A DNA stretch of 64,000 nucleotides from Nitrospirota bacterium (lineage in GTDB: Bacteria; Nitrospirota; Thermodesulfovibrionia; UBA6902), in the NCBI GenBank assembly GCA_016215115.1, contig JACRLN010000012.1, forward strand, positions 1 through 64,000, given 5' to 3'. This document shows positions 6,144-63,766 of the stretch, piece after piece. Numbering within the stretch: the stretch's first letter is position 1; each line of letters opens with the position of its first letter. The position numbers were made by a program, and so were the translations under genes. A model generated the notes under the pieces. The model made no database searches. It saw only the letters and a program-made list of their open reading frames with translations, and had not been told where the DNA came from.

Positions 6144-7334
6144 TCACCTTCCGAAAATATCTTCAAGTGTATCAATCAGATAATCAATTTCTTTTTCTGC
6201 CACGATAAGCGCTGGGGTAAACCGCAGCACGTTCCCGCTCGTGCAGTTTATAAGAATACCCCTGCCTGAGCAGGATTCGACTATCGGGCCGCAGGTTTTT
6301 GTCAGTTCCATGCCGAGCAACAGCCCCAATCCTCTTACTTCGGCTATGTAAGAAGGGAAGTCTCTTTTCAGCTTTTCAAGGTTGTCTTTAAAATACTTTC
6401 CGATGCGACGGCAATGATCCAGCAAAAAGCCGTCCTCAAGCAGCGTTTCAATTGTAGCCACAGAAGCTGCACATGCAAGCGGGTTCCCTCCGAATGTAGA
6501 TGCATGCGTACCAGGCTGAAATGCTGCTGCTACTGCGTCTTTTGCAAGAATAGCGCCTATTGGGAATCCTCCTGCAAGCCCCTTTGCAAGAGCCATTATG
6601 TCAGGTTCTATATTGAAATGTTCGTAGGCAAAAAGTTTCCCTGTCCGTCCCATGCCGGTCTGAATTTCATCAAGGATAAGCAGTAATTTGTTTTCATTGC
6701 ATATTTCACGGACCTGTTTAAAATAATCTTCTGAAGGCATTTTTATGCCGCCTTCTCCCTGTATCGGCTCAAGCATAATTGCGCAAGTGTTTTCTGTTAA
6801 GGCTTTTCTGATGGCTTCAATATCATTGTAGGGTACATACTTAAATCCCGGCACCAGAGGTTCAAATCCTTTATGAAATCTTTCCTGTCCTGTAGCAGTG
6901 AGCGCCGCAAGCGTTCTTCCGTGGAATGAACCATATGCTGTTATAAATTCATATTTTTGTGGTGAAACATGGTCTTTTGCATATTTACGTGCAAGTTTGA
7001 TTGCTCCTTCAATAGCCTCTGCCCCTGAATTACAGAAGAAGGCCTTGTCTGCAAACGAGTTTTCCACTAACAGCCTTGCAAGTTTAATCTGAGGTTCAAT
7101 GTGGTACAGATTGGAAACATGAATGAGCCTCTGCGCCTGTTTTTGCAGTGCAATCACAACCTTGGGATGGCAATGACCCAGACAATTGACAGCAATGCCG
7201 CCGACAAAATCGAGGTACTCTTTTCCGGTAGAATCCCATACCTTCATCCCCCTCCCTTTTCGCAGGACTATGGGGGCGCGGTTGTATGTATTCATCAAAT
7301 ATTTTTTTGATTCATCAATAAGCTTTCTATCCAT
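6144..7334 (-). CDS. argD: Acetylornithine aminotransferase
   Basis: A 396-residue class III PLP aminotransferase that converts N-acetylglutamate semialdehyde to N-acetylornithine in arginine biosynthesis. The pyridoxal phosphate region CNSGAEA is at about 101-107, the cofactor-contacting LDEIQTG at about 221, and the Schiff-base lysine is Lys251 in LALAKGLAGG. Length is normal for ArgD. The fold is shared with succinylornithine and 4-aminobutyrate transaminases, but the position directly before argF supports argD. First gene of the leftward argD-argF-apgM group. Confidence 0.94.
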   Translation of the reverse strand: MDRKLIDESKKYLMNTYNRAPIVLRKGRGMKVWDSTGKEYLDFVGGIAVNCLGHCHPKVVIALQKQAQRLIHVSNLYHIEPQIKLARLLVENSFADKAFFCNSGAEAIEGAIKLARKYAKDHVSPQKYEFITAYGSFHGRTLAALTATGQERFHKGFEPLVPGFKYVPYNDIEAIRKALTENTCAIMLEPIQGEGGIKMPSEDYFKQVREICNENKLLLILDEIQTGMGRTGKLFAYEHFNIEPDIMALAKGLAGGFPIGAILAKDAVAAAFQPGTHASTFGGNPLACAASVATIETLLEDGFLLDHCRRIGKYFKDNLEKLKRDFPSYIAEVRGLGLLLGMELTKTCGPIVESCSGRGILINCTSGNVLRFTPALIVAEKEIDYLIDTLEDIFGR

Positions 7335-7499
7335 AGATTAAAGAATATAACATAAATCATAGGGGTTACAAAAGCAGGAACTTTTTGTAAAAAAATAGTT
7401 GTCGATAAGTTATTATGTTAAAATTTATCAAATAACAACTTAAACCATGTTCAAATGAAAAAAAGATATCAAAGGAGCCTCTTGAAAAATTCTTTATTC

Positions 7500-7606
7500 G
7501 TCATTCCCGAGGTCTTTATCGGGAATCCAGTATTCTTTAAAACCAAAGACCCCCGATTAAGACCTTCGAGGGCAGGCTTCTGGATACCCGCCTTCGCGGG
7601 TATGAC
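7500..7606. repeat. Palindromic GTCATTCCCG element, copy a
   Basis: Starts GTCATTCCCGAGG, has an internal GGGAATCCAG / CTGGATACCCG pair, and ends with CGGGTATGAC. Two nested hairpins are expected. The reading frame of the downstream cytochrome-like gene stays open right through it, so it could be translated as an N-terminal extension if an upstream start is used. Confidence 0.85.
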
Positions 7607-7613
7607 GGCAAAG

Positions 7614-8573
7614 ATGATTTCTTCGATACATTTGCAAGAAGCTCATGGAAAAGTTTATTCCCTCTTATTTGTTCTATGCACAATATTTATTTTTTCTTTA
7701 GGCGCTTCCTCATCCTGGGCCATCCCTGAGTATGCAGAAAAGACAAAACAGGGTTGTAAGATATGCCATATAAAAGAAAATGGGGGCGATCTTTCAAATA
7801 AGGGGATTGAATATTCGGCTGCAGGATATGTGTGGCCCCCTGCCGGCGGGTACAGGGTGCTGGGCCCCATCAAGAAATCTGTACGTTTTTTTATCGGAGC
7901 GCTTCATATAGTGGCCGCATTTTTATGGTTTGGGACCATACTTTATGTTCACCTCATTTTAAGACCCGGATATGCGGCGAGGGGCTTACCAAAAGGCGAA
8001 GTTATACTCGGGATAGTTTCCATGTCTATTGTCGGCATTACGGGACTGCTTTTGACAATATCGAAAATAAGAAGTATTCATGTGCTGTATAGCGGCTGGT
8101 GGGGAATGCTTCTTTTAACCAAAATTGTTTTTTATATTATAATGATCTCCACAGCCATATTTGTTGTGCTATACATAGGCCCGAGGCTTAAAAAGGGAAT
8201 AAATACAAAAAAGACCGATCTTCCTGCAAGCGGCATATTCGATCCTCTGACGCTTTCAGCCTTTGATGGAAAAGAAGGGAGACCTGCCTATATTGCATAT
8301 AATGGAAATGTTTTTGATGTTACCTCCTTAAAACTATGGAAAAACGGTGTTCATATGAAACATCTGTCTGGAAGTGACCTTACAGAATTTTTACCAAAGG
8401 CTCCTCATGGACCGGAAAAGCTTGAGGGAATTAAGGTAGTTGGAACGTATAACGCTGCACTTAAACCGCCAAAGACCTTTGAGCAGAAAGCTTTTTACTT
8501 CATTGCTTATATGAACCTTACTATTGTATTTTTGGTATTGTTTGTAATAGCGTACTGGCGGTGGGGGATTTAA
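7614..8573 (+). CDS. Membrane protein with c-heme site and cytochrome b5-like domain
   Basis: From the ATG at 7614 the protein is about 319 residues: a signal or anchor helix (SLLFVLCTIFIFSLG), a single c-type heme motif CKICH about 48 residues in, three membrane helices in a CopD/DUF2269-like stretch with histidines, then a cytochrome b5-like heme/steroid-binding domain (YIAYNGNVFDVTSLKLWKNG...APHG) and a final membrane helix. The order suggests electron transfer across or along the inner membrane, with the c-heme outside. The frame is open from 7455, but that extension is the translated palindromic element. No strong ribosome site marks either start. A CopZ-like metallochaperone gene follows. 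The precise function is not known. Confidence 0.7.
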   Translation: MISSIHLQEAHGKVYSLLFVLCTIFIFSLGASSSWAIPEYAEKTKQGCKICHIKENGGDLSNKGIEYSAAGYVWPPAGGYRVLGPIKKSVRFFIGALHIVAAFLWFGTILYVHLILRPGYAARGLPKGEVILGIVSMSIVGITGLLLTISKIRSIHVLYSGWWGMLLLTKIVFYIIMISTAIFVVLYIGPRLKKGINTKKTDLPASGIFDPLTLSAFDGKEGRPAYIAYNGNVFDVTSLKLWKNGVHMKHLSGSDLTEFLPKAPHGPEKLEGIKVVGTYNAALKPPKTFEQKAFYFIAYMNLTIVFLVLFVIAYWRWGI

Positions 8574-22993: not shown

Positions 22994-23020
22994 GTCATTC
23001 CCGTGGAAACGGGAATCCAG
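22994..23020. repeat. Palindromic element, half copy e
   Basis: Only the left half of the element is present: GTCATTCCCGTGG...CGGGAATCCAG, a single hairpin directly after ahcY. Confidence 0.75.
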
Positions 23021-23035
23021 AAATAATAGAAAAAA

Positions 23036-23061
23036 GGACGGAATAAAATCCGTCCTTTTTT
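23036..23061 (+). terminator. Rho-independent terminator of metK-ahcY
   Basis: GGACGGA / TCCGTCC stem with a short A-rich loop, followed by TTTTTT and preceded by AAAAA, so it can work in both directions and also serves the leftward ATPase operon ending at 23085. Confidence 0.9.
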
Positions 23062-23084: not shown

Positions 23085-26012
23085 TTAGATGCCGCACTCT
23101 GAATCAGTCGGCTCATCTTTCTTTTTTACTTGTTCAACCAACTCGGCTATTGCTTTGTCACTAAGGTATCTTTGGGCGTCTATTGACTCCGGATCACTAA
23201 GGCATGTCCATAATTTGAAAAACAAATCACTGAACGGGATTCCTGTATTTTTAAGCTGCTCAAGGATTTGATGTATATTTTCATTTTTAACATTCATATG
23301 AACCTGAAGTTTGAACAGGCTCAATATTAATTTGGATACCTCTTCTTCTTTTTCCTTGTCAGTTTTAAGTAATTTAATGTATTCAACATAAAGCTCAATA
23401 AGTCGCAGAGCCTCATGAAGTTTATCTTCGGTAAGCTTTAACCACATACTCAGTTGGATTGCAAAAACCAAGAACCAAAAATCGAACCTCTCTCTATCTT
23501 CTTTTTCTATGTACTCACTTGCAATACTTTTAAAATGCTCACTGACAATATCGTACTTATCCAGCAATATCAGGAAGATGCCAAGTTGAGGTTTTGAGAA
23601 TTTTGTACTTTCCAATGCATAAAACTGTTTGACATAGTCTTCGGGTTTTAATGTTTCAAGGATGGGGAGCATGTATTGATTGTAAGTAGTATAGAACTCC
23701 GGATCAATATGTAATTTAACAGAGCTTATTCCAATGTGTTTTGTATAAGCGAGTAAAGAATTTTCTCTATCGCTTAATTTATATAGGGTTTTGCCATATA
23801 GCAGAAATACTTTTTGGCAGTTGTAATGCAATTCAAGTAACCTTTCAAACTGTTTCAATGCCTCGGCATAACGTCCCACTTTAAATAAACTTTTTCCATA
23901 AGCAAAAACCACTGCACAGTTTTTTAACGCATTATTATGTTTTTCTATAAATTCTACAGCTTGTTGATAACGTTTACTTTCTACAAAACAATATAGCCAG
24001 CATTTAATGGCATTTTCTGAATTAGGATTGATTTTCAAAGCCATTTTATATTTTTCTATAGCATCATCATATAGTTTTTGCTCTCTTAAACATTCCCCCC
24101 ACAATCCATATGCATGTTCTAACTTAGGATTAATCTCCAATGCCTTCTTGTATTTACCTATGGCCTTGTCATATTGTTGTTGTTCCGCTAAACAGTCACC
24201 CCATGAAACGTACGCACCTTCTGACTTAGGATTAATCTTCAAAGCCATCTTGTATTTCTCGACAGCTTCATCATAGCGTTTTTGTTTTCTCAAAGATTTG
24301 CCCCATGCAAAATATGCATCAATATATTCTGAATTTATATCGAGAGCTTTTGTATATTTTTCATCTGCTTCTTTATACTGTCCTAAATTCCTTAAGCATT
24401 CTCCCCATGCACCATAGGCAGTAGCAATATTAGGATCTATTTCTACAACTTTCTTGAATTTTTCAATAGCATTTTTAAATTGCTTCATCTTCCTTAAACA
24501 ATCTCCCCAATACCAATAAGCTTTCGTTGATTTAGGATTAAGCTCCAATATCTTTCTGTACTCATCTATCGCTTTATCGTACTCTCTGTTCTTCCTATAT
24601 TCTCTTGCCTTTTTGAATAGTTTCTTCTCTATCTCATCTCCTGTCTTTTCTTTTTTATCAGGCAATGCTGAATCAACGCACAATTCAATAACCTTACAAT
24701 ATTCAGGATGTCTATCCATAAAATCAGCAGTTTTAAAAATCAGCTTTTTGTAAGAATCGGCAGTTATTTCTTCCATATTGCATTTGTCCAACTTACTCTT
24801 TTCATCCATAATTGCTTTAGGAGAATAGAGCATCATCAACAATTCCATTAACCACCTTGTCTCTTCCCTGTGACTGCTGTCTCTCATTTGATACCAGATA
24901 CGATAAAGATATTCATTCAGGCAGTAGTAATTTGATTTCCCCTTTGAAAAAGCGATACGCACATATCCATTTTCTTTCATTTGCTTTAAATAATTCCTTA
25001 TAGTCGCCTGCGGCATTTCGAGATGGTCCGCTATCTCCTTTGGACTCTGCGCAGGCTCGTGCATTGCGAGTGTGTTCATGACCTCTTCCATGTAATCGGG
25101 GGTATCGTTAAGTATTGCCTCAAAATAAGGGGTCAAGTCTTCGAGAATTTCATCCATAAAGTCGAGCATTTCATCCGGCACCTCAGTTTTTAGGATATCA
25201 GAGAGGAAGACAGCCATTCGTGGATTCCCACCGGTGAATGAATATAAGGCCCTCATTCGGGCTTCGGTTTTTGCTACTTTCCCGACTATATCCTGTCTGT
25301 TATCATCAGTGAGAATGTTGGTAATCAGGATTTTCATTTCATCAAAATTCAGATCGGTCAATCGCCTTATATGAAAGAAATTATAAAAAGGATGCTTATT
25401 GTCATGAAGGGCATTGAATACTGTTGTGGCCGAACCTACGAGGAGGACATTATCATGAGTTTGCAGGAATGCACGTAATTTCTTTTGTTCAATTATGCTT
25501 ATCTTTTCACCTAATAATTTTTGCAGGTTTTCAAAAAGCAGAAGGATATATTTCCCTGATGACCGGTGAATCCAATTAAGGACGGTAAAAAGATGTTCTA
25601 TCCTCTCTGAAGCTCTAATCCCTCTTATCTTTTTTATTTCCTGCTGAAGTTCTTCTGTAACAGGACTTTGTTCCTTCTCCAATTCCAGCAGGATTTCATT
25701 AACCGTCCTTTCGAGAAATTTGGCCAAATCATTAGCCATTCTTAATTCTTCAGGGAATAAAACTGTTATCCATTTTTTTGTCAAATCGGGGTTGTTCTTT
25801 ATCTTGTAATAGAGAAGAGTCAGAAGATGCGACTTCCCGATACCTCGCGGCCCCACAATCATCCAGTGCTGTTTGGGATGCTCCCCCTTTGTTAGTGCCA
25901 ACTCTTTTAAAAGGCCGTTTAAGATATCCCATCTTTCGCTGCCGACTAATTCCCTTTCGAGTTGATCAGGAGTCTTTTTTCTCGTATTATATGCGTAACT
26001 TCTCGCCATCAT
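23085..26012 (-). CDS. P-loop ATPase with winged helix and TPR array (STAND-like)
   Basis: A 975-residue protein of unknown function. An N-terminal AAA/STAND-like ATPase has Walker A GPRGIGKS at 54-61, a hydrophobic strand ending FENLQ (about 160-164) at the Walker B position, a sensor-like LLVGSAT (190-196) and GGNPR (261-265). A winged-helix segment follows (about 306-355, SPKEIADHLEMPQATIRNYLKQM). About eight tetratricopeptide repeats span 462-750, then a helical tail. ATPase, winged helix and repeat sensor is the architecture of signalling STAND proteins. Its start shares a base with the stop of the upstream ATPase gene (TAATG), so translation is coupled. Defence, signalling or chaperone roles are all possible. 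Confidence 0.8.
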   Translation of the reverse strand: MMARSYAYNTRKKTPDQLERELVGSERWDILNGLLKELALTKGEHPKQHWMIVGPRGIGKSHLLTLLYYKIKNNPDLTKKWITVLFPEELRMANDLAKFLERTVNEILLELEKEQSPVTEELQQEIKKIRGIRASERIEHLFTVLNWIHRSSGKYILLLFENLQKLLGEKISIIEQKKLRAFLQTHDNVLLVGSATTVFNALHDNKHPFYNFFHIRRLTDLNFDEMKILITNILTDDNRQDIVGKVAKTEARMRALYSFTGGNPRMAVFLSDILKTEVPDEMLDFMDEILEDLTPYFEAILNDTPDYMEEVMNTLAMHEPAQSPKEIADHLEMPQATIRNYLKQMKENGYVRIAFSKGKSNYYCLNEYLYRIWYQMRDSSHREETRWLMELLMMLYSPKAIMDEKSKLDKCNMEEITADSYKKLIFKTADFMDRHPEYCKVIELCVDSALPDKKEKTGDEIEKKLFKKAREYRKNREYDKAIDEYRKILELNPKSTKAYWYWGDCLRKMKQFKNAIEKFKKVVEIDPNIATAYGAWGECLRNLGQYKEADEKYTKALDINSEYIDAYFAWGKSLRKQKRYDEAVEKYKMALKINPKSEGAYVSWGDCLAEQQQYDKAIGKYKKALEINPKLEHAYGLWGECLREQKLYDDAIEKYKMALKINPNSENAIKCWLYCFVESKRYQQAVEFIEKHNNALKNCAVVFAYGKSLFKVGRYAEALKQFERLLELHYNCQKVFLLYGKTLYKLSDRENSLLAYTKHIGISSVKLHIDPEFYTTYNQYMLPILETLKPEDYVKQFYALESTKFSKPQLGIFLILLDKYDIVSEHFKSIASEYIEKEDRERFDFWFLVFAIQLSMWLKLTEDKLHEALRLIELYVEYIKLLKTDKEKEEEVSKLILSLFKLQVHMNVKNENIHQILEQLKNTGIPFSDLFFKLWTCLSDPESIDAQRYLSDKAIAELVEQVKKKDEPTDSECGI

Positions 26013-27238
26013 TATTGCCCCCCAGTTTTACAGGCCCACCAGTCTTTAAGAAGAGGCGATACAAATTTCAGCTTTCCTCTGTCAGAAGTATCTCTCATAA
26101 TATAGCCTTCATATATGAGTCTGTTTACAACAGATTGAAAGACTTCATTGCTGCAAGTATCGAATAAATAGGAATCATAAAGTTGTTTTTCGTGTAAAGG
26201 ATTGGAGCATAAATGCTTCAAAATGATTGTGGAGCATTCCTTTTCAACGGCTGTAACAAGATACTCCTGTAATCTTGCGTGGAAATGGTTGAGGTCATGA
26301 TCGCCTCCGCGTAACATTGCGTCATAAACCGATTGAACCCGGGTAAAAGTGAATTTCCTTTCCCTTGCATCTCTTAATGCCTTAAATAATATCTGCCCAT
26401 AATAAGGGGAGCCGTCTGTTATCTTATCCGCCATGAACTCTATGCCCCCTTTATCTATCTCTATCTGATATTTCTTCATCAGTTCTTTTATAAGAAGTAA
26501 GGCTTCCTCACTCTTCATAGGTGGAACTCGCAGAGTTTCCAGATCGTTTATTCGTTTTCCTATCCCCAGATCTTCCAGTGTCTTCCGCAAATTAATGGAG
26601 CCGCAGAAGACAAACTGATATTTGCATCCGCTTTCAGTTTTTTGCCTTAATGAACGCAACCATGCAGTGAGTGTGTCAGTTGCTTCCTTAAAACCTAAAA
26701 TTTCTTTTCCTCTATTTTTAAAATTTATAAGCATATCCGGAAATTCATCGAATACAATCACCGTTCTTTTTTCAAAAGAATTCAAACCGAAAATCAAGGG
26801 CTCAATTTTTTCTCTCCATTTAGAAAAATCGAAATCCCTTGTTTGCTCTCTTAATTCAATTTCAAATTGAGGAATTTTAATTTTCGGAAGCCTTTTGGCA
26901 ATGGTGTTCCAGAAATCCCCAAGGATAGTGCTTAACATATCTAACTTCTTGCGAATGCTGTAAAGGTTTAATAGTTCTTTAAAGAATGCATAGCAAAAGT
27001 GGTTTATAGTCTCCTCTCCTTCAAGCTCAAAGAAAAGGATATTGAATTCTCTTTCAGCATCTGGCTTTTTATTTTCCTCAGACACAAATTCTTTGACTAC
27101 GCTTGTTTTTCCATATCTTCGAGGAGCTTCAATAATAATTGAGGTTTTTCTTGTCAATCCTCTCAACTCATCAACCAGGAATAATCTTGTTTTTAAGTAA
27201 TTGGCATCTACAACTGGCGTCCCCGTAATATTTTCCAT
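26012..27238 (-). CDS. Archaeal-type P-loop ATPase, partner of the TPR ATPase
   Basis: A 408-residue ATPase resembling the ATPase_2/AAA_14 groups: Walker A APRRYGKTS (38-46), Walker B VIVFDEF (160-166), a sensor region VFCGSIN (210-216) and GSPYYGQ (276-282), followed by a winged-helix-like C-terminus (LYDSYLF...VVNRLIYEGYIMRD). No nuclease or membrane segment is visible. AGGAGG lies eight bases before the ATG, with a promoter and palindromes upstream. The downstream TPR-ATPase gene starts at the last base of this stop codon. The function of the pair is unknown. Confidence 0.8.
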   Translation of the reverse strand: MENITGTPVVDANYLKTRLFLVDELRGLTRKTSIIIEAPRRYGKTSVVKEFVSEENKKPDAEREFNILFFELEGEETINHFCYAFFKELLNLYSIRKKLDMLSTILGDFWNTIAKRLPKIKIPQFEIELREQTRDFDFSKWREKIEPLIFGLNSFEKRTVIVFDEFPDMLINFKNRGKEILGFKEATDTLTAWLRSLRQKTESGCKYQFVFCGSINLRKTLEDLGIGKRINDLETLRVPPMKSEEALLLIKELMKKYQIEIDKGGIEFMADKITDGSPYYGQILFKALRDARERKFTFTRVQSVYDAMLRGGDHDLNHFHARLQEYLVTAVEKECSTIILKHLCSNPLHEKQLYDSYLFDTCSNEVFQSVVNRLIYEGYIMRDTSDRGKLKFVSPLLKDWWACKTGGQ

Positions 27239-27269
27239 TTTAATAACCTCCTAAAATTATTACAATTTA

Positions 27270-27298
27270 AGAGTATCATAATATAAAACACTTGTCAA
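27270..27298 (-). promoter_or_regulatory. Sigma-70-type promoter of the two-ATPase operon
   Basis: On the minus strand TTGACA (27293-27298), a 17-base spacer and TACTCT (27270-27275) with an extended TG one base before the -10. The ATPase ATG is about 30 bases further on, with AGGAGG between. Confidence 0.6.
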
Positions 27299-27304
27299 TA
27301 TATG

Positions 27305-27340
27305 CGTTTTATATTTTATAACGTTTTAAATTTTAAAACG
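27305..27340. promoter_or_regulatory. Two overlapping CGTTTTA palindromes upstream of the ATPase promoter
   Basis: CGTTTTAAATTTTAAAACG (27322-27340) is a perfect palindrome around one base. An imperfect copy, CGTTTTATATTTTATAACG, occupies 27305-27323 and shares the central CG. Three CG steps are thus spaced exactly 17 bases apart just upstream of the -35 box. Probably tandem operators, perhaps for the XRE protein encoded next door. Confidence 0.55.
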
Positions 27341-27451
27341 CTAAATCTAATTACTTAAGATAGCTGTGGATGTCAGGAATCTACCTTCTTGGTAAATGAA
27401 TTAGAGAAGATCTGTTCGTAATTCAGTCGTGGGGCGTTAAAAATTTCCAAT

Positions 27452-27814
27452 CTATGCGTCTCTCAAAGCCTTAATGATGTCATCCAAATCTTTTTCGGTT
27501 ACAGCCTTATCCTTGATTGTCCTGAACAACAATGGTAATGCAGGCACGATCTTCTTGTCGTCCATAATATCCTCGGGTATTCTGCCGCTAAATACACTGG
27601 CAAGATCAAAGAATTTGAGCCAGTCATCAGTCCCCCTTTTTATCTTCAGCGCCTTTGCGTACTCTTCCAGTCTTTTTCTGTCCTGCGGAGGCGGCAATAA
27701 GTCTCTTTCCAATTTGCTCATATTTCCGACATCGAATCCGTTTTGCCTGCAAAACTCTCTCAAAGTCAGTCCGAGTGCCCTTCTTTTCATGTTGAAGAGT
27801 TCCCCGAATGTCAT
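27452..27814 (-). CDS. XRE-type helix-turn-helix regulator
   Basis: A 120-residue protein with an N-terminal helix-turn-helix (LGLTLREFCRQNGFDVGNMSKLERDLLPPP, split over residues 14-43) and a C-terminal segment SGRIPEDIMDDKKIVPALPLLFRTIKD common in XRE proteins near toxin-antitoxin or mobile cassettes. No toxin partner is adjacent. GGGGG precedes the ATG. It lies directly upstream of, and in the same direction as, the two-ATPase genes, so it is the natural candidate to regulate them and itself through the palindromes on either side. Confidence 0.82.
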   Translation of the reverse strand: MTFGELFNMKRRALGLTLREFCRQNGFDVGNMSKLERDLLPPPQDRKRLEEYAKALKIKRGTDDWLKFFDLASVFSGRIPEDIMDDKKIVPALPLLFRTIKDKAVTEKDLDDIIKALRDA

Positions 27815-27834
27815 AATGTTACCCCCTTTCTGGT

Positions 27835-27853
27835 GTTGTAATTATAATACAAC
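27835..27853. promoter_or_regulatory. Palindrome over the -10 region of the XRE gene
   Basis: GTTGTAATTATAATACAAC has 6-bp arms GTTGTA/TACAAC. On the minus strand it contains TATAAT (27841-27846), a consensus -10 box, 20 bases before the ATG. A protein bound here would block transcription, so autoregulation by the XRE protein is likely. Confidence 0.55.
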
Positions 27854-27876
27854 AATGGAAGATAAACATCAATATC

Positions 27877-29004
27877 CTATTCAATCACCCCGCCGCCTAT
27901 GACCACATCGTTATCGTAAAATACCGCACTCTGCCCTGGAGCCGGCGCCCACTGCGGCTCGTCAAATTGAACAAGAACTTTGTTATCTCCGGCGGGGCTG
28001 ATCGTTGCCGGCATCTCTTTCATTGTTGAGCGGATTTTTGCGTGTGCTCTAATCGGGCTTGTGAGCGAATCGATGGCTATCCAGTTCAATTCTCTCACAT
28101 TGAAACTTTTTCTCACAGTGTCTTCCTTTGAGCCGGCAACGATGGCGTTTTTCTTCCGATCTATATGAGTAACGTAATGAGGCTTTAGCGAAGGAATTCC
28201 AAGCCTCTTTCTCTGTCCGATGGTATAAAATGCGATCCCTTTATGTTCTCCGATAACTCTTCCTTCCATGTCCACGATAGGGCCTGGCTGCAGTGATTCA
28301 GGGGAAAACGCTTTTATAAAATCCACATACTTCTCATTGCCGACAAAACATATCTCCTGGCTTTCCGGCCTTAAGGCGGTGGCAAGTCCGAGTTCTTTTG
28401 CAATATTCCGTGTTGTTTCTTTCGTAAGCTCACCGAGGGGGAATATAGTTATTGAGAGCTCTTCTTGCGTCATTACGTAGAGAACATAGGATTGATCTTT
28501 CTTTAAGTCGACACCTTTGAGTAACAAGTGACGAGTAACGAATTTAGTTCTGAGTTTTGAGTTTTGAGTTTTGAGTTTTTCTGACTGCTGACTGCTGACT
28601 GCTGACCGCTGATTTTTCTCTATTCTCGCATAATGCCCTGTTGCAACTAATTCAGACCCCAATTCTTTTGCTTTTTTCAAAAGGAAATCAAATTTTATAT
28701 ATTTATTGCACAGGATGCATGGATTCGGAGTTTTTCCTTTTATGTATGAAGTACAGAAGTTTTCAATCACATGTCTGTAGAAGGCATCTCTGACATCAAC
28801 GGTGTAATGCTCTATCCCAAGATTGTGAGCTACTGACTTTGCAAGTTCAATGGTTTCAACGGAACAGCAGACATTGGAACTTTTTAAATCCCTTTTGTCC
28901 CACAGTTCAAAGCTAAGCCCTGTTACTTCGTAGCCCTGTTTCTTTAGTAAATACGCGGCAACAGACGAATCAACGCCCCCGCTCATGGCGATAATTACTT
29001 TCAT
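27877..29004 (-). CDS. mnmA: tRNA-specific 2-thiouridylase, with a repeat-encoded insertion
   Basis: A 375-residue enzyme that thiolates U34 of Glu, Gln and Lys tRNAs. PP-loop MSGGVDSSVAAYLL at 7-20, catalytic NPCILCNKYIKF near 94-105 with Cys96, ATGHYARI at 121-128, and the second catalytic cysteine region RPESQEICFVG. Between GHYARI and LLLKGVD the protein has about 34 residues where relatives have about 10; residues 131-157 are Ser/Gln/Lys-rich and are encoded by a 14-unit heptamer array. The insertion lies in a variable surface loop and keeps the frame, so the enzyme is probably functional. Confidence 0.95.
   Translation of the reverse strand: MKVIIAMSGGVDSSVAAYLLKKQGYEVTGLSFELWDKRDLKSSNVCCSVETIELAKSVAHNLGIEHYTVDVRDAFYRHVIENFCTSYIKGKTPNPCILCNKYIKFDFLLKKAKELGSELVATGHYARIEKNQRSAVSSQQSEKLKTQNSKLRTKFVTRHLLLKGVDLKKDQSYVLYVMTQEELSITIFPLGELTKETTRNIAKELGLATALRPESQEICFVGNEKYVDFIKAFSPESLQPGPIVDMEGRVIGEHKGIAFYTIGQRKRLGIPSLKPHYVTHIDRKKNAIVAGSKEDTVRKSFNVRELNWIAIDSLTSPIRAHAKIRSTMKEMPATISPAGDNKVLVQFDEPQWAPAPGQSAVFYDNDVVIGGGVIE
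28519..28616. repeat. Heptamer array inside mnmA, 14 units
   Basis: Fourteen 7-base units in one phase: GAGTAAC-type, then GTTTTGA-type, then TGACTGC-type. The unit sequence drifts along the array while the period stays seven. It is read through in frame as part of MnmA. Confidence 0.88.
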
Positions 29005-59034: not shown

Positions 59035-61218
59035 TTATTTTTTGCGCAGAACTATTGAGACAAATATAAAACCGCTAAAGCATATCCCTAACGATATATA
59101 CGGGAAAACTACAAACATAACAACTGGTGTCAGCACAATTCTTGTAATAAATCTCAAATACTTGCAGTCTCTGATAACATCCGCTATTGAAGGAGAGTAT
59201 TTATAATAGAAATCAACGAAGGCCTTTCCGGGGGAATTGGTTAAAAGATGCTTGTCTCTGAACTCCCTCAGTGCCTTAACATAAGGGTGCATTATGCTTC
59301 CATATGCAGCAGTAGCGATAAAACATCCGCCACCGCCACCGCCTCCTCCTGAAGCTGTTCCTACATTCCCCGAATTAGCCCCCTTCCCGCTGCCGGGGCC
59401 GTTATTTCTTTCAGTAAAAGTATAATTTTCTTCTATAAGAGCCTTGTACGCATTCAATCTCCCACCAGAGGCGACTTTGCCGTTAAGTGAAGCCTTGGTA
59501 TCGACGCTGTTTAATATCGCTCCTTTTATTTGAAGATTGGTTAATTGCGGTTTGAGAGCCTTTATCAGACCTGCCACACCCGTTACATGAGGCGCTGCCA
59601 TAGAGGTTCCGCTATAATATGCATAACTATAGCTGCTTGCATTAAGAGGTGTTCTTGTCAGTTTTACATCGTCCAGATAAGTCCCTGCACGGTTGACAGA
59701 GGAATCGCTTGTCAAACCAAACCCAAAATAAAAATGGTCATACATTTCGGCTATATCTGTGAAACTATCTGTTGAATCTGCAACAAAAATACCATTCGTT
59801 GACACTGTCCTGTAGTCAACCCAGTCCCATCGAATGCCGTCAAGGGAATAATTGATATCCATGTAATCATAATTCTGTTCAATATCGCCTTTCCACTGGA
59901 ATGACAGCGTATATATATTATCTTTTACTGAAGTGATAGGGGTCATGTAACCTACCCATGATGCAGTGTTATCAGCATAGTTGCCCCCGGGACTCTCTTC
60001 GAGACTGTTAGTTCCGTCGATGCCCGTTCCGCTTGTAATAGCCCATGAAGTTCTGGTTCCGCCTTTGGACCAACCCAGAAGGGGAAGCTCGCCAAGTGCG
60101 CTGTCAAAATTTTCTTCATAAACAGTAACCGGGGACCCATAGCTGAATACGGGAATGGTACTGTATATATTTAAGCCGGGAGCCGCCAGATCAACTGATT
60201 TTGCGCCATAATTCGAGAACGATGTAAGGTTATCACTCGCGTCTGTGGCTGCTACGGCTATGATATTGGGACTTGTGTAACTTGCAGGATAAAAAGCTGC
60301 TGAATCATTGCTGCTTCTGCTGTTCCCCGCTGCACAGACTACAACGGCGCCGGATGCATCTATGGCATCTTTAAGCGCCTGGCTGTAACCGCTTCCTCCC
60401 CAACTATTGTTAATGACATGAGCCCCTTTGTCATTTGCATATAAAATAGCTGACACGGCATCAGCAGTTGAGCCGCTGCCGTTTATACCTAAAAACCTCA
60501 GTGGCATTATCTTTGCCTGCCACATTATGCCTGTAATCCCGGTGTTGTTGTTTCCTCCTGCCGCAATAGTCCCTGATACATGCGTCCCGTGGCCGTTATA
60601 ATCCATGGGGTCATTGTCATTACCTATAAAATCCCACCCTTTGCAGTCATCTATATAACCATTTTCATCATTGTCGACGCCATCCGTGCAACTGGTCTCT
60701 CCTGTATTGGTCCAGATATTGCCGGCCAAATCAGGATGATCATATGCAACTCCAGTGTCAACGACAGCTATTACAACTTCGGTTGAACCGGTTGTTAAAT
60801 CCCATGCTTCCAGTGCATCTATATCAGCGCCAGGTTTTCCGCCTGTCTGTCCCGTGTTGTGAAGCCCCCATAGGTTGTTAAAGTAAGTATCGTTCGGTGT
60901 TGCATCAATATGAACAATATAGTTAGGTTCTGCATATTCCACATTCGGATCTCTTTTATAGTACTCAACAGCTTCCTCCACGTTTATATTATCAGGAAGT
61001 TTCAGATGTTGAACCCTGATTTTCTTAAAGTCCTTTTTCTTGACGGAGCCGATATTTTTGTGAAGGGTATTCATTGTACCGGCAGTTACACCATCTTTAT
61101 ATTTTACAAGAATTTCTCCTGGTATATATTCTGTAAATCCATTATTGCAGAGAAAAACAAGAAGCAAGAAAATAAAAGCGATTTTCCCGGAAGTAAAAGA
61201 AAAAAGTAAATGTTTCAT
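59035..61218 (-). CDS. Subtilisin-like protease, CFI-box C-terminus (paralog 1)
   Basis: A 727-residue secreted serine protease of the S8 family. Signal peptide (about 12-29), an I9-type propeptide (YIPGEILVKYKDG to YAEPNYIVH, about 31-103), catalytic Asp154 (VVDTGVAYDHP), His210 (NGHGTHVSG) and Ser539 (SGTSMAAPH). A jelly-roll-like domain (about 362-522) is inserted between the His and Ser motifs. An EF-hand-like DGVDNDENGYIDD at 179-191 may bind calcium. A Gly run leads to CFIATAAYG (C632) and a CFI-box-CTERM region (to about 690) followed by a membrane helix. About 350 bases separate it from a paralog. Confidence 0.93.
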   Translation of the reverse strand: MKHLLFSFTSGKIAFIFLLLVFLCNNGFTEYIPGEILVKYKDGVTAGTMNTLHKNIGSVKKKDFKKIRVQHLKLPDNINVEEAVEYYKRDPNVEYAEPNYIVHIDATPNDTYFNNLWGLHNTGQTGGKPGADIDALEAWDLTTGSTEVVIAVVDTGVAYDHPDLAGNIWTNTGETSCTDGVDNDENGYIDDCKGWDFIGNDNDPMDYNGHGTHVSGTIAAGGNNNTGITGIMWQAKIMPLRFLGINGSGSTADAVSAILYANDKGAHVINNSWGGSGYSQALKDAIDASGAVVVCAAGNSRSSNDSAAFYPASYTSPNIIAVAATDASDNLTSFSNYGAKSVDLAAPGLNIYSTIPVFSYGSPVTVYEENFDSALGELPLLGWSKGGTRTSWAITSGTGIDGTNSLEESPGGNYADNTASWVGYMTPITSVKDNIYTLSFQWKGDIEQNYDYMDINYSLDGIRWDWVDYRTVSTNGIFVADSTDSFTDIAEMYDHFYFGFGLTSDSSVNRAGTYLDDVKLTRTPLNASSYSYAYYSGTSMAAPHVTGVAGLIKALKPQLTNLQIKGAILNSVDTKASLNGKVASGGRLNAYKALIEENYTFTERNNGPGSGKGANSGNVGTASGGGGGGGGCFIATAAYGSIMHPYVKALREFRDKHLLTNSPGKAFVDFYYKYSPSIADVIRDCKYLRFITRIVLTPVVMFVVFPYISLGICFSGFIFVSIVLRKK

Positions 61219-61567
61219 CTATTCCTTTTTTTAAAAAACCGTCAATTACTATTTCGGTATAATTGTGCTTTTTCTTTAGGGCTGCAAGAGTTGATGGCTC
61301 TTTCTCATAATGAAGTGGGTAAACTTTAGCCTTTCCCCTCTAAGAAAGAGGGGTGCAGGGGTGTGTTTAAATGAAAATTAAGTTTAATTCAGCTCTAAAA
61401 GAATTAGCCATGGTGCTGAGAAATAACACTACAAAAGCGGAAATAAAACTCTGGAGTTATTTATAAGGGAAACAACTTATAGGGTATGATTTTCACAGAC
61501 GAAAAAATTGAAAATAAACACACCCCTTCATCCCCTCTTAATATAGGGGAGGTAAGGCAGAAGGATA
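61219..61567. other. Intergenic stretch between the two protease paralogs
   Basis: About 350 bases with no gene, mostly taken by the MITE-like element at 61329-61558. Should also hold the promoter of the first paralog, which I could not place. Confidence 0.5.
61329..61558. mobile_element. MITE-like element with imperfect ~40-base terminal inverted repeats
   Basis: Left end GCCTTTCCCCTCT...GGGGTGTGTTTA and right end TAAACACACCCC...GAGGTAAGGC are inverted copies of about 40 bases. The 145-base interior has no coding sequence. It sits between the paralogous protease genes and shares CCCCTC palindromes with 12502-12608 and 52424-52510. Confidence 0.65.
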
Positions 61568-63766
61568 TTAAACAGATTGTTTTAGCAACTTGAAATGATA
61601 ACGAACCATAATTATTAATGTAATAAATATGACTGTAGACAAATAAGGAAAAACCACAAACAGTATTAAAGGCATTAGAACAATTCTTGTAATAAATTTC
61701 AAATACTCTCTGTTTTTTATAACATCCGCTATCGGCGGCGAGTATTTATAATAGAAGTTAACAAATGCTTTGCCAAATGAATTGGTCAAAAGATGCCGGT
61801 CCCTGAATTCCCGCAATACTTTTACATAAGGGTGCATCATATTCCCATATGCTGCAGTTGCAATAAAGCACCCGCCTCCGCCCCCTCCTCCGCCCCCTCC
61901 TCCACCTCCACTATTGTTGGCGTTGGTAACACTATTTTTACACGAAATATTACGTGGTGTTGCCTGTAATGCTTTGTATGCATTTAACCTGCCGCCTGTT
62001 AAGACTTTACCGTTAAGTGATGGTTTTAAATTTACTGTACTCAAGATCATATCCTTAACCTGACAGGCGTTAAGAGAGGGATAAAGAGTGAAAATCAATC
62101 CTGCAACACCTGAGACATGAGGCGCAGCCATTGATGTGCCGGCATAACTTGTATAAGTGAAACCGCTTGCTGAAATCGGCTTTCTTGAAAGCGTTACATC
62201 ATCAATATAAACTCCGTCATAATTTACTGAATTGTCAGACGTTAATCCGAATCCAAAATAAAAACTTTTAAACATTTCTGATAGATCTGTAACGTCAGTA
62301 GAATACGAAACGAAATTTCCATTTATTCCTGTCCTTCTATCTATCCAATACCATATTGTTCCGTTAGTGGAAAAATTAATATTAAGATAATCTACATTGT
62401 TTTCAAGCGCACCTTTCCACTGAAAAGTGAGTGTATAAATATTATCCTTCACTGATGATATGAGCGTCATAAAGCCTGCCCATGAACTTGTATTATTCAG
62501 ATAATTTCCTCCGGGGCTGTCTTCAAGGCTGTTGGTCCCGCTGAGGCCTGTGCCATTTGTTATAGCCCATGTAGAATTATTGCCCCCCCTGTCCCATCCT
62601 AACACCGGAAGAGATTCTGGAAAAGGTCCTGATGCACCATCAAAATTTTCACTATAGACGGTTACCGGAGAGCCATAGCTAAACTGAGGAATTGTGCTAT
62701 AAATATTAACTCCAGGCGCTGCAAGATCCACTGTTTTGACTCCAAAGTTTGAGAAAGATGCGAGGTTGTCACTATGATCAGAGGCTGTAACTGTTATTAT
62801 GTTGGAGCTTTTGAAACTTGCCGGATAATTTGGTATTACGTCTATGTTTGCGCTGCCGCTCCCGCCGTCGTTTCCTGCCGCACAGACTACCACTGCGCTG
62901 GATGCGTCTATGGCATCTTTAAGCGCCTGGCTGTAACCGGAGCCTCCCCAACTGCAGTTTATTACATTTGCTCCTTTGGCGTTTGCATATAGTATTGCAG
63001 CAATGGCATCTGCGGTTGTTCCTGACCCGTTTACCCCCAGGAATCTTAACGGCATTATCTTTGCTTTCCACATTACACCTGTAATTCCGGTGCTATTGTT
63101 TCCAACTGCAGCAATTGTACCTGCAACATGCGTACCGTGTCCATTATAATCGGATGGGTCATTGTCATCACCTGTAAAATTCCATCCTTTGCAGTCATCT
63201 ATATAACCGTTCCCGTCATTATCTACGCCGTCCGTACAACTGGTTTCTCCTGCATTTATCCAGATATTGGCGCTCAGATCGGGATGATTATATGCAACTC
63301 CACTATCAACAACAGCAATGACAACATCATTGGACCCGGTTGTTATATCCCATGCCTCAGGCGCATCAATATCAGCATCAACGGTTCCGCCGGTCTGTCC
63401 AGTATTATTAAGTCCCCAGAGTTGAGTGAAAGGCGGATCATCTGGCGTTGTTGCCAAGGCATGAACAATAAAATTGGGTTCGGCATATTCCACATTCGGG
63501 TCGTTTTTGTAATATTCAACGGCTTCTTCCACGCTCATATCATCAGGGAGTTTTATGTGCTGGACTTTGATTTGCCTGAATTCTCTCTTCTTGACAGATT
63601 GTGCATATGCATGAAGATTATTGATTGCGACTTCACTTGAGGTGTCATTGAATTTAACCAGAATTTCCCCGGGAACGTATTCCTGCATATTATTTTTACC
63701 GAATGCGGAATGACTTAATGCTGTTCCAATTATTACAGTGATAAGAAACGATAAATTTTTCTTCAT
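61568..63766 (-). CDS. Subtilisin-like protease, CFI-box C-terminus (paralog 2)
   Basis: A 732-residue S8 protease closely related to paralog 1, sharing the whole domain plan: signal peptide (about 1-22), I9-type propeptide to about residue 102, Asp154 ([11 protein letters not shown]), His210 (NGHGTHVAG), a jelly-roll-like insertion (about 364-528) and Ser545 (AGTSMAAPH). A run of about 13 glycines leads into CFIATAAYG and the membrane anchor. The two genes are a tandem duplication in the same direction. Confidence 0.93.

Follow-up and report, generated by a model that had tools for sequence, protein, structure and literature searches.

Gene Content of the Locus

We analyzed a 64,000-nucleotide stretch of DNA from a Nitrospirota bacterium (assembly GCA_016215115.1, contig JACRLN010000012.1, positions 1 to 64,000; hereafter the window), focusing on two adjacent ATPase genes, here called A and B. 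Three open reading frames (ORFs) follow one another on the minus strand, namely a gene for an XRE-type regulator, A and B (table 1). As the first-pass annotation had described, the stop codon of A overlaps the start codon of B in the sequence TAATG, a terminator hairpin flanks the B side, and mnmA flanks the other side; terminator-like sites across the region were no commoner than in shuffled sequences. The same annotation joined the three genes into one XRE, ATPase and tetratricopeptide repeat (TPR)-ATPase cassette with palindromic control sites. The genes were present as described, and the palindromes were two distinct elements, one upstream of A and the other upstream of the XRE gene, but the XRE gene does not belong to the conserved unit. 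The cassette is a composite, and the unit consists of A and B.

Table 1. Features of the A-B locus in window coordinates
Feature	Position	Strand	Description or basis
Bidirectional terminator hairpin, ahcY/B interval	23030-23061	both	13-bp stem and T-runs
Gene B, 975 aa	23085-26012	-	Overlaps A by TAATG; ORF, Pfam, alignment
B conserved all-helical C-terminal domain	23118-23780	-	Kept in relatives without TPRs
B TPR array	23778-24635	-	About 8 units of 34 aa, neighbors at most 62% identical; Pfam
B ATPase and winged helix region	24813-26012	-	Alignment of 32 pairs; AlphaFold2 model
B winged helix, proposed operator-binding domain	24882-25097	-	Pfam HTH_IclR 29.6 bits (cut-off 22), HTH_5 27.8 (22)
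B degenerate Walker B	25527-25550	-	ILLLFEN
B Walker A	25830-25853	-	GPRGIGKS
Gene A, 408 aa, ATPase and winged helix	26012-27238	-	ORF, Pfam, profile and structure matches, alignment
A C-terminal winged helix	about 26033-26251	-	
A Walker B	26744-26767	-	VIVFDE
A Walker A	27101-27127	-	APRRYGKTS
Sigma70-type promoter of A	27270-27298	-	TTGACA (27293-27298), 17-bp spacer, TACTCT; sequence
Operator array of A-B, upstream of A	27304-27341	-	Double palindrome, ACGTT-type, CG steps exactly 17 bp apart
Stub, start of lost immA/irrE	27410-27451	-	DNA alignment to L044 ends at about 27410
Orphan XRE-type HTH gene, 120 aa, outside the module	27452-27814	-	87% identical to the G268 gene preceding ImmA/IrrE
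Palindromic operator of the XRE gene, TGTTGTATTATAATTACAACA	27834-27854	-	Expected chance occurrences in the window: 0
mnmA	27877-29004		

Co-occurrence and Distribution of A and B

Homologs were sampled from three phyla, plasmids and phages. A profile of A gave 15 strong matches among 396 genomes of the phylum, a profile of B recovered the identical 15, and neither was found in the other 381 genomes, a co-occurrence whose probability by chance is 2e-27. Weaker matches of A (E 1e-11 to 1e-15) were read as other ATPase_2 proteins. The first-pass annotation had considered that the two ATPases might always lie apart in other genomes; they were found together in all 15. Altogether 32 adjacent pairs were gathered from Nitrospirota, Desulfobacterota, Acidobacteriota (Aminicenantes), a geobacterium (Pelotalea), Bacteroidota, and Moraxella, most of them chromosomal and some, in Segatella and Moraxella, plasmid-borne. 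A lay immediately 5' of B on one strand, mostly overlapping it or a few bases away (gaps of -82 to +120 bp across the 32 pairs, one degraded copy excepted). Moreover, distances among A proteins tracked those among B proteins closely (Mantel r = 0.94), a value reached in none of 2000 permutations. At the level of sequence, our results demonstrated that A and B are obligately paired and have co-evolved, and we infer that the two proteins would form one complex. The exceptions to pairing were a Methylomonas plasmid with A but without B and the L127 genome, which has a decayed A.

The host genome (2.8 Mb) holds a single pair, while several pairs per genome occurred elsewhere, with three of different subfamilies in G406 (Aminicenantes) and two in G853; L014 and G252 represent one and the same locus. 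The A of the window was not found in phage records or viral contigs, and one weak partial phage match was obtained for a distant A. No description or name for the pair was found in the literature searched, whose coverage left out subscription-only papers and preprints.

Domain Architecture of the Two ATPases

The A protein matched the Pfam models AAA_14 and AAA_22 just over the cut-off and ATPase_2 under its curated cut-off, and its profile matched PDB 2fna (SSO1545) with an E value of 1.4e-9. In Foldseek searches its AlphaFold model was most similar to PDB 2qen (PABY2304), and Orc1/Cdc6, SSO1545, and the plant NLR NRC3 were also recovered; the AlphaFold models used here are of single chains and derive from shallow alignments. 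All 31 readable A proteins in the alignment of 32 pairs had a canonical Walker B motif (hhhhDE), and we propose A as the active motor subunit that would hydrolyze ATP.

In B, Pfam recognized TPRs and a winged helix, the latter above the cut-off, and the ATPase_2 match was weak and under the curated cut-off. The NACHT model weakly matched some B proteins, and the AlphaFold model of B matched PDB 6mfv (PH0952). The Walker B motif of B was hhhh[E/D]N in 31 of 32 proteins; in the model of the window's B, strand 155-160 directly precedes E161-N162, and the DE of A and the EN or DN of B sit at the ends of equivalent strands. On a simple reading, because B lacks the catalytic glutamate, it would mainly bind ATP while A hydrolyzes it, and B is probably hydrolysis-impaired, binding but not hydrolyzing ATP. 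The winged helix passing Pfam models of DNA-binding domains was that of B and not that of A, and B is our proposed operator-binding subunit. Its recognition-helix stretch R-N-Y-x-K was nearly invariant within the clade having the ACGTT operator.

The TPR array is optional. It was wholly missing in the B proteins of the close relatives L016 and L017, which retained the C-terminal helical domain (about 220 aa), and in some much longer B proteins (1529 aa) the extra length consisted of more TPRs only. Of the features expected of STAND NTPases, the P-loop ATPase core and the winged helix were present, and a repeat sensor was provided by the TPRs in the B of the window, being absent in L016 and L017; the earlier description of a coupled STAND-type pair with a repeat module was borne out. 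An unseen effector had also been suspected in the C-terminal part of B. This candidate was rejected, as the domain had no Pfam or PDB sequence match and was helical over its whole length in a moderately confident model, and the long variants add TPRs alone.

An Operator Array at the A Promoter

The sigma70-type promoter of A is preceded by two abutting palindromes, the last CG of which lies 8 bp upstream of the -35 box. At least three CG steps at exactly 17 bp were found in 7 of the 8 loci of the window's clade, which come from several phyla, and in none of 2000 random placements. The array of L016 had up to seven such steps, and periods from 10 to 25 bp other than 17 bp gave no clade-wide pattern. 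Among other promoters of the clade loci, 4 of 100 reached three 17-bp steps. In other subfamilies the array spacing was 15 or 16 bp and the sequences differed (CAACAAATTTGTTGG; TGTTATATAACA and TTGTACAAC types); these arrays usually covered the -10 box or the leader. When a general scan for 14-18-bp arrays was applied identically to A promoters and controls, 25 of 33 A promoters scored at least 18, a level that 3% of 150 controls attained (p = 4e-13); the median was 20 for A promoters and 15 for controls. In the host genome, the operator had its only full match at this site, and no second site was found at up to one mismatch in the 19-bp unit. Rfam returned no RNA-element match.

The tight palindromic control earlier suggested for the ATPase pair was recovered as an array in the A promoter that recurs across loci. 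A and B are the only proteins that these loci have in common, which makes them the likely binders of the array, and the strong promoter of the pair is very likely under the control of its own products. Most A promoters carried a near-consensus TTGACA; because such promoters lie under an operator array, autorepression fits better than activation, and we infer that the control would be repressive. A solo array (GCGTTATATTTTTCATAACGTTTTGAATTCCATAACGC) with no adjoining A-B genes was also observed at L123 (about 6440-6490; G407:C172:137441-137476), in an Aminicenantes genome that has a pair elsewhere; it may mark where a copy was lost, or it may be a further target.

Insertion Site and Genomic Neighborhood

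In G174, of the same genus, ahcY and mnmA are 48 bases apart and the flanking order is otherwise kept, compared with a gap of 4.9 kb in the window. On this comparison of gene order, the module is a recent accessory insertion between ahcY and mnmA. The genus sample, in which not every member was searched with A, contained the pair only in the window's genome and in G296, where it is of a different subfamily and at a different site. At the sequence level the distribution is patchy, and G174 has an almost empty site. In sequence, the A of the window shared more with its counterpart in a Desulfobacteraceae metagenome-assembled genome (about 64%) than with the Magnetobacterium protein (44%), a pattern that indicates horizontal transfer. 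Other genes were also seen near mnmA: in G174 (L051 9003-15001), genes of helicase/PLD-like and PIN-like type come after a YkgJ-like gene, and in G238 (L049 1-7300) type I restriction genes and an XRE-ImmA pair lie a few kilobases from mnmA. The mnmA neighborhood seems to collect accessory genes.

A role in defense had been proposed for the cassette. Three Moraxella osloensis plasmids (L161 3826-10868, L074, and L162) carried the same A-B pair followed by differing, exchangeable defense genes. In one of them a PD-Lambda-4_A/Avs4-like gene overlaps B by 17 bp, in two a dUTPase-PRTase-AAA-CARF-methylase set comes after the pair, and one has Qat and a kinase upstream. Around chromosomal pairs, however, 102 flanking proteins yielded plausible defense genes in two places only, a type I restriction locus in L138 and a solitary Cas6 in L131, and no association with defense islands was seen among these proteins, in a comparison made without a matched control. 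The proposal was supported only in part. Given the variable or absent TPR array, the several pairs per genome, and the Moraxella neighbors, defense is plausible. As the first-pass annotation had expected, the pair is not tied to a metabolic pathway, no metabolic neighbor recurring at the loci examined. The Cas6-like gene (L131 4328-5290; PADLOC E 3.7e-82) adjoins B in one of the Desulfobacterota pairs; no further cas gene was recognized among the ORFs listed nearby.

The XRE Gene as Remnant of an XRE-ImmA/IrrE Pair

The product of the XRE gene matched Pfam HTH_31 under the cut-off. Its nearest relative is in G268, of the same genus, where an intact ImmA/IrrE peptidase gene (Pfam Peptidase_M78) follows downstream. 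The order XRE then ImmA/IrrE was found in 6 of 7 relatives examined, with M78 recognized by Pfam in two and a HEIGH-type motif read in the rest. DNA similarity to the G268 locus continues for some 40 bases beyond the XRE stop codon, taking in the beginning of immA, before it breaks off. Positions 27410-27814 are a decayed XRE-ImmA/IrrE pair, of which the regulator and its operator survive and immA is reduced to a stub. The operator is unique in the host genome and differs from that of A, and a similar element lies upstream of the G268 XRE gene. Membership of the XRE gene in the A-B unit was rejected on its different operator and the ImmA partner in relatives, and no XRE gene was seen beside A-B elsewhere. 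Nor does it appear as the controller once suggested, since it is an orphan with an operator of its own, while the array travels with A-B.

A Probable Self-Regulated Two-Subunit ATPase Switch

We consider it probable, with some reserve, that A-B is a self-regulated, heteromeric, two-subunit ATPase switch that has spread horizontally. The structural matches of A to SSO1545, PABY2304, and Orc1/Cdc6 suggest a STAND-like switching mechanism for the pair. At rest, the complex would sit on its 15-17-bp operator array across its own sigma70 promoter and keep it near-silent. A cue sensed through the TPR and tail region of B would shift the nucleotide state in the manner of STAND proteins, and the complex would then leave or re-form on the array, giving a burst of A and B synthesis. 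The output might come from the A-B oligomer itself or from a partner encoded elsewhere, anti-invader or stress defense being the most likely. Within this reading, defense is the likeliest purpose, and we entertain it tentatively. Also tentative is a wider proposal, that A-B represents an unnamed class of bacterial immune or stress receptors with two obligate ATPase subunits, one the active motor and the other a TPR partner that binds DNA and is impaired in hydrolysis. They would assemble on a self-encoded 15-17-bp array that co-diverges in sequence with the pair, so that the same complex senses and amplifies itself.

Several observations weigh against the switch and its defensive purpose. Chromosomal copies lie mostly among housekeeping genes. 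Neither Pfam nor PADLOC recognized an effector domain in A or B, in line with the missing effector nuclease remarked on earlier, and none recurred in the neighborhoods. The 17-bp register was first spotted by eye on the very sequences then tested, and in the general scan the promoters of L014, L019, L062, and L139 scored no better than controls or shuffles. Furthermore, the array of the window's clade lies mainly upstream of the -35 box and is compatible with activation too. Its end 8 bp from that box is a class II activator position, and there is a precedent in mycobacterial IniR, an activator of iniBAC that combines an SSO1545-like ATPase, a MalT-like sensor, and a domain for DNA binding (PMC5760070). 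A-B might then be a positively autoregulated STAND activator of the MalT/IniR kind, responding to a metabolite or envelope stress rather than serving defense, with more targets elsewhere. We regard this as unlikely, because no second operator was found in the 2.8-Mb host genome at up to one mismatch in the 19-bp unit, promoters so near the consensus should need no activator, arrays of other clades lie over -10/+1 or the leader, and no metabolic neighbor recurs.

An Orc1/Cdc6-like replication or maintenance module, with the array as origin or segregation site and the locus as a relic of an integrated element, would account for the Foldseek matches to archaeal Orc1/Cdc6 on origin DNA, the iteron-like arrays, and the several pairs on plasmids. 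It is nevertheless very improbable, since the array keeps register with a sigma70 promoter, the two-gene module is mostly chromosomal and has no recombinase or replication genes, and B has TPRs and a degenerate Walker B motif. Least probable of all is a single three-gene toxic module with XRE controlling the ATPases, as first envisaged; the three genes are contiguous on the same strand with palindromes in both promoters, but the ImmA/IrrE partnership, the truncation of that partner here, and the distinct operators have largely refuted it, and no XRE neighbor was seen at other A-B loci.

Compared with known systems, A shares with the archaeal STAND-type SSO1545 and PABY2304 (PDB 2fna, 2qen) an ATPase and a winged helix, but those structures are single proteins, whereas A-B is an obligate pair of unequal paralogs with a TPR partner and an operator array. 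IniR, MalT, and PH0952 (PMC5760070, PMC6468293, PDB 6mfv) share the STAND ATPase core and a helical-repeat sensor with A-B, and the DNA binding of IniR and MalT is comparable to the role proposed here; these two are the nearest characterized regulators. Each of them, however, is one polypeptide that binds DNA through a C-terminal domain (SdiA-like in IniR) and activates other operons, while A-B has two subunits, an internal winged helix, and as its sole operator found its own. The archaeal Orc1/Cdc6 heterodimer (PDB 2qby) consists of two paralogous ATPase-winged-helix proteins binding DNA, as proposed for A-B, and is a fold match for A, but no origin context was apparent for A-B and its sites overlap a promoter. 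In BREX, the active STAND/Orc-Cdc6 ATPase BrxC, with a winged helix, stands beside the inactive STAND protein BrxB (PMC12839542), a precedent for the division proposed for A-B; BrxB, however, lacks both Walker motifs, and BREX requires PglX, PglZ, and others, none of which is at the A-B locus. Avs/NACHT-type bacterial NLRs share the STAND core and repeats, but Avs carries a fused effector and no effector domain was recognized in A or B. Membership in BREX and in MADS was rejected: no PglX, PglZ, or BrxC occurred in the neighborhood and PADLOC found no BREX protein in A or B, and MADS was represented only by a weak partial mad8 match in B (9.5e-5), with no mad1-mad8 cluster in the window.

The two-subunit pair would be a new form of STAND/Orc1-type switch. 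If the switch reading is true, a two-subunit architecture is added to STAND/NLR-type switches, a division of labor between a working ATPase and a DNA-reading partner can be read from sequence, and the operator array offers a compact genetic handle by which the trigger could be measured with a simple reporter. That NCBIfam has no model matching A and gives for B only a TPR-protein match, far under every cut-off shown, explains why annotation pipelines overlooked the pair.

Other Features of the Window

A short, GC-rich dispersed palindrome (TCATTCCCGTGGAAACGGGAATCC) lies at 22994-23022 and again inside the ORF at 7455-8573, and in some ORF predictions it is apparently translated too. At 59035-63766, two long ORFs lie side by side, with products of 727 and 732 aa that are much alike at the N-terminus; they resemble secreted subtilisin-type proteases and are likely a tandem duplication.

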